Source: Phenylobacterium sp.
GTDB lineage: Bacteria > Pseudomonadota > Alphaproteobacteria > Caulobacterales > Caulobacteraceae
Length of the DNA stretch: 46,241 bases
Direction of reading: 5' to 3'
Assembly (NCBI RefSeq): GCF_028290885.1
Contig: NZ_JAQGIZ010000045.1
Span: 1 to 46,241, forward strand
Of the stretch, positions 20,194-46,031 are shown in pieces. The stretch's first letter is position 1. Each line of letters opens with the position of its first letter. Position numbers and translations under genes: made by a program. The notes below the pieces were generated by a model, which saw only the letters and a list, made by a program, of their open reading frames with translations, was not told where the DNA came from and made no database searches.

Positions 20194-20453
20194 GGCGGGG
20201 CTGCGCCGGGATGTCGGCTATCGCCGGTTTCCCTGTGGCCGGCGCGTCATCAAAATATGAAGACGTCATGGCCCGGCTTGTCCGGGCCACCCATAAACAC
20301 GGGAAAGCGCGATTAGTCGCTGTGGCGCCGCTGCGGCCAACCGCGGGACGGCGAGATCATGGATGGCCCGGACAAGCCGGGCCATGACGATCGGTGGGGG
20401 GTGTTGGTCCCAAGGCCCGAATTCGCGTCGTCCAGTCGTCGTTCCGGAAACGC
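20194..20453. other. gap after rcdA: repeat-filled, no gene
   Basis: The gap between rcdA and rpmE is 311 bases. It is taken up by a 126-bp palindromic repeat (20264-20389) and, at the right end, by the rpmE terminator. No coding sequence is supported. Confidence 0.6.
20264..20389. repeat. 126-bp composite palindromic repeat, family A copy 1
   Basis: Two imperfect palindromes built on GGCCCGGCTTGTCCGGGCC stand in inverted orientation: 20264-20294 and 20359-20389, which are reverse complements except for one base, with a 64-base centre. A second copy with the same arm and centre lengths is at 22749-22873. The structure is like a REPIN or small MITE. Confidence 0.85.
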
Positions 20454-22748: not shown

Positions 22749-22873
22749 CGTCATCACCCGGCTTGTCCGGGTGACCCAGGAACACCGGATTGCGCAAGCA
22801 AATCCGCGGAGCCGCCGTGGCGCACCCTTCGGCGCGGAGATCATGGGTGGCCCGGACAAGCCGGGCCATGACG
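22749..22873. repeat. 125-bp composite palindromic repeat, family A copy 2
   Basis: Left arm 22749-22778 is a variant (CACCCGGCTTGTCCGGGTG); right arm 22843-22873 contains GGCCCGGACAAGCCGGGCC. The left-arm changes are compensating, so its hairpin is kept. The 64-base centre has the same length as in copy 1 but a different sequence, and holds its own small hairpin around TGCGCAAGCA. Confidence 0.85.
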
Positions 22874-44867: not shown

Positions 44868-44999
44868 GGGCGGTTCCTCCAACGCAACGCCTGGCATCCT
44901 CAGATGCGTCCGCGGCTTAAATCGCACGCGGGATGCGAGCCTGCCTGGGCAGGTCCGTCAAGGATCGGCCTGCGGTTGGGGCGCGCGAACCGTCCCCCT

Positions 45000-45041
45000 C
45001 CGCTCATCCCCGCGAAAGCGGGGACCCAGGCTTTTTTCGTT
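45000..45041. repeat. 42-bp inverted repeat, left copy of the GIY-YIG unit
   Basis: Contains the hairpin CCCCGCGAAAGCGGGG followed by GACCCAGGC, six T and CGTT. It is an exact reverse complement of 45333-45374. Its last base is part of the stop codon of the GIY-YIG gene. Confidence 0.95.
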
Positions 45042-45331
45042 CATTCGAGCGGCAGTTCCTCGAACAGGTCTCTCCAGCTTGGATTGAACCGTTCGATCAG
45101 TTCGAGCTTCCAGAGTCGCCGCCATTTCTTCATCGCGCGTTCGCGCACGAACGCTCCGTTTCGGCCCTCGAACACCTCGTAATAGACAAGCCGCTTTACC
45201 CGGTACTTGGCGGTGAAGCCGGGCGTGGCGCCTTCGCGATGCTCCAACATTCGACGGCTGATGCTGTCGGTGTGGCCGATGTAGAGGGTCCCGTTCCTCT
45301 GGCTCGCCAGGATGTAGACGTAGAAGCTCAT
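45041..45331 (-). CDS. GIY-YIG endonuclease-domain protein flanked by inverted repeats
   Basis: A 96-residue single-domain protein of the UvrC/YhbQ-like GIY-YIG superfamily. YVYILASQRNGTLYIGHTDS gives the two motif strands (YVY at 4-6, YIG at 17-19); catalytic Arg is R26 or R27 in SRRMLEHREG, with His31; the metal-binding Glu is E64 in VRERAMKKWRR. The rest is basic, WRRLWKLELIERFNPSW. The ORF is bounded with great precision by perfect 42-bp inverted repeats: the ATG is one base from the right copy and the stop overlaps the left copy. No Shine-Dalgarno is seen. It might be a repeat-linked mobile nuclease, though standalone YhbQ-like proteins are also common chromosomal genes. Confidence 0.85.
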   Translation of the reverse strand: MSFYVYILASQRNGTLYIGHTDSISRRMLEHREGATPGFTAKYRVKRLVYYEVFEGRNGAFVRERAMKKWRRLWKLELIERFNPSWRDLFEELPLE

Positions 45332-45332
45332 C

Positions 45333-45374
45333 AACGAAAAAAGCCTGGGTCCCCGCTTTCGCGGGGATGAGCGG
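45333..45374. repeat. 42-bp inverted repeat, right copy of the GIY-YIG unit
   Basis: Exact reverse complement of 45000-45041, with the hairpin CCCCGCTTTCGCGGGG. It lies one base upstream of the GIY-YIG start codon and three bases before the stop codon of the next gene (45378). Confidence 0.95.
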
Positions 45375-45377
45375 AAA

Positions 45378-45995
45378 TTAGGGGTCGGGTAAGGGCGCCT
45401 CGAAGGGCTCAGAAATCGGTCGCCCGACCGCGCCCTCCACGGCTTCCGGAGGCGCCGCCTCGCTCTCGATCCCCCAGTCCGCGTCGTTCCAAAGGACCAG
45501 GGGCGGGGTGACGCCGAGGTGCTTGCAGATGAGGGCGACGATCTCGGGGAGGGGGCGGTCGTGGAAGCCGGCCAGGTCGTCGGCGTCTTCCAGGCGTTCG
45601 CGGAGGTCTTCGTAGAGGTTGTCGGCCTCCGAGCCGGAGGCTTCGGCGTCGATGGCGCGCTCCACCAGGGACTCGATGCGGGTCCGGCGGCGTCGGGCCT
45701 GGGCGTCGGCCTCGCGTTGGCGATGCTGGGCGCGCTCGGCGAGGGACGTCTGCCGGTCGTCGGCGAGCTTGGCCTCCAGGGCCACGGTCTGGCGCACGGC
45801 TCTGGCGATGCGGGCGAAATCGAGCGCCAGGGCATGGGCGGTGGCCGGATCGGCGTCGGCGGCCTGGGCGCTCACCGCGCGGGCCAGGTTCATGCCGAGG
45901 TCGGTGAGCTCCTGCAGGACGCGCCCATGCCGCTCGGCCCGATCCGCGACGGGATCGGTCGGCGCAGTCTCAGGGATCGCCTCCGTGTCGAACAT
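45378..45995 (-). CDS. unknown helical protein, candidate SOS-regulated gene
   Basis: A 205-residue cytosolic protein not recognised as a named family. It is mostly helical: ELTDLGMNLARAVSAQAADA, LDFARIARAVRQTVALEAKL and a strongly charged coiled-coil stretch (about 75-110, rich in Arg, Gln and Glu) before ERLEDADDLAGFHDRPLPEI, then a short segment VALICKHLGVTPPLVLWND. No signal peptide or membrane helix. ATG 45995 is chosen; an upstream in-frame start at 46031 would read through the SOS box. A GTTC-N7-GTTC direct repeat lies right before the ATG, so LexA control is likely. The GIY-YIG unit follows directly downstream. Confidence 0.7.
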   Translation of the reverse strand: MFDTEAIPETAPTDPVADRAERHGRVLQELTDLGMNLARAVSAQAADADPATAHALALDFARIARAVRQTVALEAKLADDRQTSLAERAQHRQREADAQARRRRTRIESLVERAIDAEASGSEADNLYEDLRERLEDADDLAGFHDRPLPEIVALICKHLGVTPPLVLWNDADWGIESEAAPPEAVEGAVGRPISEPFEAPLPDP

Positions 45996-46010
45996 GAACA
46001 AAACAAGAAC
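45996..46010 (-). promoter_or_regulatory. SOS (LexA) box
   Basis: On the minus strand GTTC-TTGTTTT-GTTC, an exact match to the alphaproteobacterial LexA consensus GTTC-N7-GTTC, touching the ATG at 45995. Because the box abuts the start codon there is no room for a ribosome binding site, so a leaderless or very short-leader transcript is implied. Confidence 0.7.
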
Positions 46011-46031
46011 ATAGATACCGGCGGGAGTCAA

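Follow-up and report, generated by a model that had tools for sequence, protein, structure and literature searches.

The window, a stretch of 46,241 nucleotides from Phenylobacterium sp. (NCBI RefSeq assembly GCF_028290885.1, contig NZ_JAQGIZ010000045.1), carries near its right end a small open reading frame for a GIY-YIG nuclease, which is tightly enclosed by two inverted copies of a palindromic repeat (Table 1). An earlier note on this DNA had described exact 42-bp inverted copies, each with a hairpin and a T6 tract, around an ORF of 291 bases whose ATG lies one base away from one copy and whose stop shares one base with the other. This anatomy was borne out, with a true perfect length of 43 bp (43/43), one base more than claimed, and the inverted pair extends to 46 bp at 98%. 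The hairpin of each arm reads TCCCCGC-GAAA-GCGGGGA and is accompanied by a T6 run at 45032–45037 and by its A6 counterpart at 45337–45342, while position 45332 is the spacer before the ATG and the left arm reaches over the stop codon. The frame is also open upstream of the ORF (264 aa from an earlier ATG), and the ATG at 45331 was chosen as the nuclease start because the relatives align from there.

Table 1. Features of the nuclease unit, in positions of the window
Feature	Coordinates	Strand	Remarks
Left inverted repeat	44999..45041	+	REP palindrome with GGCTTTTTTCGTT extension; shares one base with the stop codon
Right inverted repeat	45333..45375	-	Perfect reverse complement of the left repeat; stops one base short of the ATG
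REP core, left copy CTCATCCCCGCGAAAGCGGGGACCCA	45003..45028	+	Tag, hairpin and tail; 0 mismatches to the class-A pattern; hairpin folds
REP core, right copy, inverted	45346..45371	-	0 mismatches to the class-A pattern
GIY-YIG nuclease ORF, 96 aa	45041..45331	-	ATG to TGA, 291 bases; Pfam PF01541
Whole unit, 375 bp	45000..45375	.	Nucleotide homology to six relatives at other sites

From the base composition, about 1.5e-14 perfect 42-bp inverted pairs are expected by chance in the window, and a chance origin of the inverted repeat is excluded. The 375-nt strand folds with its arms paired end to end (DNA z-score -9.9), and the same pairing is obtained as RNA. This fold suggests that pairing of the termini beside the ATG could mute the translation of read-through transcripts, as some insertion sequences do. 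Like an insertion sequence, the window unit is delimited by terminal inverted repeats (43/43 bp); inspection by eye of the bases adjoining it revealed no target-site duplication.

The 96-aa protein consists of a single domain that matches the Pfam family PF01541 (GIY-YIG) with 51.5 bits against a cut-off of 22.6, and the NCBIfam search returned no model above cut-off. Seven residues, Y6, Y17, G19, R27, H31, E64 and K68, are conserved in 97–100% of 112 aligned rows (Y6 0.97, Y17 0.98, G19 0.98, R27 0.98, H31 0.99 and E64 1.00). The conserved Y..YIG, R and E residues are of the catalytic type in the GIY-YIG superfamily. The nearest solved sequences are those of the UPF0213-type GIY-YIG proteins (PDB 1ywl and 1zg2, E 6e-7 and 7e-4), which have one small domain each and are distant from the window nuclease. 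A protein search of the window's own genome at E <= 0.001 found the window copy as the sole nuclease relative, and a second GIY-YIG match in this genome falls in a 647-aa open frame, probably UvrC.

The REP core of the window reads CTCAT-CCCCGC-GAAA-GCGGGG-ACCCA. According to Di Nocera et al. (2013, PMC3733652), REPs are mainly intergenic, and the CGTC-tagged REPs form a superfamily with a tag, an 8-bp stem, a loop of 4–5 bases and a CCA tail, mostly alphaproteobacterial and widespread there. In many of its members the terminal CGTC tag is altered to TGTC or CCTC, and CGTC-1 is the dRS3 repeat of Neisseria (PMC3733652, main text). The same survey describes the CGTC-tagged REPs as apparently having no dedicated transposase and leaves their mover as a question, and its main text contains 0 occurrences of GIY-YIG. 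The window repeat agrees with this build, as described there, in having a tag, an 8-bp stem, a four-base loop (GAAA), a T-A second stem pair and a CCA tail, but departs from it in the tag itself, GCTC, and in the first stem pair, which is A-C instead of A-T. Most of the other repeat types in the genus read GTCAT at the tag, and the genus copies ending in ATCCA conform to the stem, loop and tail pattern of the superfamily.

The search of the own genome for the repeat, as proposed in the earlier note, revealed dispersed copies. The type-A class pattern, to which both window copies belong (26 positions, at most two mismatches), has 17 matches in this genome against 0 for the reversed control, and a 69-base repeat query found 22 places at E < 0.01 among the 33 listed, both window copies included. 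The GGCTTTTTT extension is common to three places outside the window (contigs C266, C209 and C247). Inverted REP pairs occur on contigs C263, C313 and C66, and such pairs often have their members about 95 bp apart in a REPIN-like manner. Thus the superfamily trait of many dispersed copies, often as inverted dimers, is present in the window's genome. The inverted pair on C66 (L027, 594–981) spans 388 bp around other sequence. A decayed nuclease within this C66 pair was considered and rejected, as a six-frame reading gave no GIY-YIG similarity by eye and the window copy alone was matched in the own-genome protein search at E <= 0.001.

We surveyed the surroundings of the nuclease gene across the genus, where relatives were found in 35 of 60 genomes at E <= 0.001 and in 33 at E < 1e-8. 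The 70 loci taken cover 77 of the 89 listed matches, with 12 weak or partial matches left out; 62 loci were kept for the motif count and eight dropped (L150 by hand, seven by filter), some of those kept, such as L151, looking frameshifted. A motif consisting of the tag [GC]TCA, a stem and an AYCCA tail, searched within 200 bp of the gene, was found at 51 of the 62 loci and was absent at 11, and it lies upstream at 40, downstream at 35 and on both sides at 24. Counted by windows, tagged hairpins occur in 75 of 124 windows near the genes versus 2 of 244 control windows 500–900 bp from the same genes (Fisher p 6e-42, to be read as a strong effect and not as a probability, because the motif was drawn up after inspection of the flanks and tested on the same, non-independent loci). 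The motif replaced a first hairpin scan, in which type A or B was detected at 31 of 62 loci versus 1 of 242 far windows, a low count because interior loops had been disallowed. A coincidental neighbourhood of repeats and gene was judged unlikely from the 75/124 versus 2/244 comparison: the repeat is widespread, yet linked to GIY-YIG genes, so that the absence of such a link, named in the earlier note as grounds for abandoning the idea, was not encountered. The exact fit of the repeats to the ORF, which the same note had taken as the layout of the element, holds in the window but is not general, as many relatives have the shorter REP only, often paired, on one or both sides.

Related nucleases share the type of repeat, A and B being the two most frequent types. 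Type A (CTCATCCCSGCGAANGCSGGGACCCA) goes with the clade of the window nuclease, type B (GTCATGGCCSGGCTTGTCCSGGCCAYCCA) with another clade, and long-stem types with others. On a nuclease tree of 84 rows, the 45 labelled rows (21 A, 24 B) need 1 change, whereas 500 shuffles of the labels needed at least 9 (mean 15.2). Single genomes carry several copies of the nuclease gene, with differing repeats. Four Caulobacter loci (L071, L072, L073 and L084) show one upstream inverted pair with the same hairpin and a CCCAGG tail, in which the tag is replaced by TAAAA or TACAA.

The presence of the nuclease in a genome, taken at E < 1e-8 and thereby excluding two weak genomes (G001 and G018), was then compared with the presence of type-A repeats, which were found in 29 of the 33 genomes with the nuclease and in 7 of the 27 without it (p 1e-6, 60 genomes). 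As counter-cases, 4 of the 33 nuclease genomes have no type-A repeats, and G054 has 46 of them with no nuclease match; among the 36 genomes of at least 3.8 Mb the association weakens to p 0.05 (p 0.014 for at least 10 copies). With clade membership assigned to each genome by hand from the tree, broken genes included, the median number of type-A REPs is 37 where a clade-A nuclease is present versus 0 where it is not (one-sided p 5e-6), and that of type-B REPs is 8 with a clade-B nuclease versus 0 without one (one-sided p 5e-7). Type-B REPs do not clearly track clade A (one-sided p 0.096). Type-A REPs, however, also track clade B (one-sided p 0.0044), and therefore shared history or genome size may explain part of the association. 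In genomes with one clade alone, the ratio of A to B repeats is 7.0 versus 0.95 (p 0.0012). The window's genome also contains 16 type-B repeats, and the protein search found no clade-B nuclease in it. Two inverted type-B REP pairs lie in the window itself, at 20265–20388 and 22750–22872, with members about 95 bp apart in REPIN-like fashion; in a genome without a clade-B nuclease, these pairs are relics or orphans.

Outside the genus, 13 loci on plasmids, misfiled chromosomes and phage were examined by reading. Nine of them have repeats of this general kind close on both sides of the gene: two in Shinella and one each in Neorhizobium, Rhizobium CIAT894, Azospirillum, Sphingobium, Novosphingobium, Neisseria gonorrhoeae and Aeromonas. 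The repeats read CGTCATCCTCGGGCTTGACCCGAGGATCCA or near it in Shinella (both loci), Neorhizobium and Rhizobium CIAT894, and GTCATTCCCGC...GCGGGAAT in N. gonorrhoeae and Aeromonas. The N. gonorrhoeae homologue is an unannotated ORF, 53% identical over residues 1–90, that lies among dRS3-like GTCATTCCCGC repeats, whose tags face the gene, unlike those of the window; at the Aeromonas locus both flanking repeats have the same orientation, again unlike the window. At S. meliloti L260 related palindromes are more loosely arranged, at Photobacterium L264 they lie downstream only, and no repeats were visible by reading at Rhizobium L261 or at L269, the sole phage locus read. Among more distant relatives, four from Hymenobacter (L087, L092, L093 and L094) have flanking inverted repeats of 26–53 bp with a different sequence, and many others (Bathyarchaeota, Chloroflexi and others) have no notable inverted repeat. 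In the Bacteroidota relatives L108, L111, L112 and L113, the gene lies between repeated terminator-like hairpins; at L108 and L112 a tRNA-like 3' end with a terminator precedes the gene and recurs after it, as would be expected of a gene that had entered a tRNA end.

The boundaries of the unit were defined by aligning the window with 12 loci (matches of at least 60 bp). Six copies (L041, L044, L049, L070, L075 and the second copy of genome G033) align across the whole unit and then stop, with alignments that begin at 44989–45001 and end at 45374–45381, that is, at the repeats. For four loci (L042, L043, L071 and L074) the match is confined to the gene, and for L052 it covers a portion of the unit; the alignment of the first G033 copy is split in two, and that of L158 runs out at the contig end. 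The two G033 copies are diverged, broken paralogous units about 1.9 kb apart, each between repeats of the window kind.

Orthologous sites differ in whether they hold a related unit. Azospirillum lipoferum 4B has the nuclease gene, flanked on either side by a REP pair, in the interval from sufB to sufC; this is the 1 filled site, and the 6 empty records examined, of the 11 listed without the gene, have no insert. These six have no tagged palindrome, although B510 has an untagged hairpin. In the gap between fnrL and a response regulator on Sphingobium plasmids, 3 records are filled and 3 empty. Where the unit would be, two of the three empty ones have a single palindrome with a tag on either end, CGTCACCCCGGG-TCAAG-CCCGGGGTGACG or a degenerate form of it, and the third has no palindrome. 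For Shinella, the alignment covered 1 filled and 1 empty site, and the latter has no palindrome. For the Rhizobium CIAT894 locus, no two-sided empty site was found among the listed rows, the others sharing the downstream peptidase side only.

For the window's own site, 91 genomes had a caiB match, but no more than 30 of these yielded loci; in the 29 caiB loci of relatives, one of which offers only 171 bp of upstream sequence, the nuclease stands at the window position in no case. The finding that would have spoken against the earlier note, the gene at the same place without flanking repeats, was therefore seen at 0 of these 29. A clean empty site for the window unit was sought through the caiB and alanine-dehydrogenase orthologues, and relatives proved to be without the neighbouring gene as well. 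In the three genomes where both outer flanks match (G099, G058 and G015), at most 33 bp stand where the window has about 1.2 kb, and the gene at 45378–46031 is absent too; the left-flank matches in relatives without the unit are short (46–52 bp, E 2e-4 to 3e-3), and the multiple alignment is poor. Since these three relatives are without the neighbouring gene too, the window unit may have entered within a larger segment. That neighbour (45378–46031, minus strand) codes for a protein of about 205 aa from a multicopy family, which is matched 14 times within its own genome and in 42 of 101 genomes of the genus, and reached no Pfam or NCBIfam model above cut-off. The proposal of a small mobile element thus stands in part: the unit exists as such, six relatives are homologous to it as far as the repeats, and related units occupy some orthologous sites and not others, but neither a clean empty site nor a target duplication was found at the window unit.

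Directly seen here are the layout of the unit, its association with the repeats, the repeat types that follow nuclease clades, the limits of the unit and its presence or absence at orthologous sites. On this footing, we consider it likely that the window holds a REP-bracketed GIY-YIG nuclease element that is mobile, a counterpart of the RAYT 'REPtron', whose predicted enzyme recognises the flanking and dispersed REP hairpin, and in which repeat and nuclease clade have diversified together. In such an element, the small nuclease would recognise a tagged hairpin, CTCAT-stem-GAAA-stem-CCA, found both beside its own gene and dispersed in the genome, and, by analogy with the Ssn nucleases, might nick it in single-stranded DNA, during replication or transformation. 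The RAYTs on GTAG-tagged REPs (PMC3733652, main text) offer a second analogy. Repair or recombination at the cut would copy or remove the segment between two inverted REPs, and the same process could spread both the gene unit and the gene-less, REPIN-like inverted pairs. Deletion between inverted REPs would leave closed palindromes, and the nuclease itself would presumably drive the movement.

Falling just short of an even chance is the reading that the gene is resident and domesticated, a site-specific single-strand nuclease of the Ssn type whose action on dispersed repeats would restrain the uptake or recombination of DNA. By flanking the gene, the repeat copies would hold it together with its target, and movement would be rare or proceed by ordinary recombination between repeats. 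The Ssn family comprises site-specific single-strand GIY-YIG nucleases of Neisseria and others, and the neisserial Ssn protein, of the same superfamily as the window nuclease, reportedly binds a repeat that occurs hundreds of times and has a modulating effect on transformation. The fold family and the conserved residues fit this reading, as does the N. gonorrhoeae homologue among its dRS3-like repeats. However, the patchy orthologous sites, the several copies per genome with different repeats, the broken copies and the unit ends at the repeats are more like those of a mobile element.

A homing-like process seems rather unlikely. In such a process the nuclease would have as its natural target a closed palindrome with a tag on either end and would cut the loop; recombination would copy the gene in, and the halves of the target would become the flanking REPs. 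A palindrome tagged at both ends consists of the fused outer halves of two inverted REPs and is either a deletion scar or the target of the unit. GIY-YIG nucleases include homing endonucleases, the two palindromes at empty Sphingobium sites lie where the unit would be, and closed type-A palindromes, with sites counted on both strands, occur in 31 of the 60 genus genomes, the reversed control giving 0 in each of the 60. The same palindromes are nevertheless expected as deletion scars between two inverted REPs, and a tagged palindrome is missing from the six empty Azospirillum sites and from the third Sphingobium site.

It is very improbable that these REPs are moved by RAYT (Y1/HUH) transposases, with the GIY-YIG genes as mere bystanders between the repeats. 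RAYTs have been proposed to mobilise GTAG-tagged REPs (PMC3733652, main text), but a PF01797 (Y1) search of the window's genome (89.55% complete) gave no match, and the RAYT/Y1 matches in 11 of the 60 genus genomes show no association with the repeat (p 0.5; 0.2 for at least 10 copies). Moreover, for the CGTC-positive species that it names, the main text of PMC3733652 reports no tyrosine transposase gene flanked by CGTC repeats. RAYTs were judged unlikely as movers of the window-type REPs from their absence in the own genome and the lack of co-occurrence. Equally hard to credit are ordinary intergenic hairpins, terminators or mRNA-stability elements, that flank a host gene by coincidence: REPs are chiefly intergenic (PMC3733652), a hairpin with T6 resembles a terminator, and at 4 of 57 loci of two unrelated genes the first hairpin scan detected an upstream hairpin of type A or B, but the excess of tagged hairpins beside the nuclease genes, the clade-specific types and the eight bases between stem and T run in the window all argue against it.

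As many of its relatives lie beside a version of such a repeat of their own, the window nuclease may well be the partner that a large bacterial repeat family has so far lacked. The occurrence of the repeat within 200 bp of the nuclease gene at 51 of 62 loci, with clade-specific types, makes the question of the CGTC REP mover testable by oligonucleotide cutting and transposition. A wider proposal, which we put forward tentatively and would sooner doubt than accept, is that GIY-YIG nucleases are the missing dedicated mobilisers of the CGTC-tagged REPs across Alpha-, Beta- and Gammaproteobacteria. They would then make up another REP/REPIN system, independent of the first and using GIY-YIG chemistry where that uses HUH; each clade would cut its own palindrome and the unit would home into closed palindromes, splitting them into flanking inverted repeats. 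If this were true, the neisserial dRS3, the REPIN-like pairs and small GIY-YIG genes of unknown role would be parts of one system, and many candidate sequence-specific hairpin nucleases would be at hand.

Among known systems, the GIY-YIG homing endonucleases share the superfamily with the window nuclease, whose gene possibly lies inside its own target; the window unit differs from them in its single small domain, in a target that would be a dispersed palindrome and in that no intron or intein was seen. The closest known system is the Ssn family, which likewise combines a small GIY-YIG protein with a cognate dispersed repeat, and by this analogy the nuclease–repeat pairing appears to be of the Ssn kind. 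A probable difference is that the repeats here are exact inverted termini that bracket the gene, and that related units have filled and empty sites. The comparison with REPs and RAYTs drawn in the earlier note is apt, because the repeat is built like the members of a known REP superfamily and occurs in inverted, REPIN-like pairs. As in the REPIN/RAYT system (REPtron), a nuclease gene is flanked by REPs, inverted REP pairs often lie about 95 bp apart, and gene-less copies occur; the tag is different, and in place of the Y1 (HUH) domain and chemistry of a RAYT the window protein has those of GIY-YIG. A literature search, with most subscription papers outside its reach, recognised no work joining GIY-YIG genes with REPs. 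As far as can be told, what is new here is that the repeat resembles CGTC REPs and has types specific to nuclease clades, together with the limits of the unit and the orthologous sites seen filled or empty.
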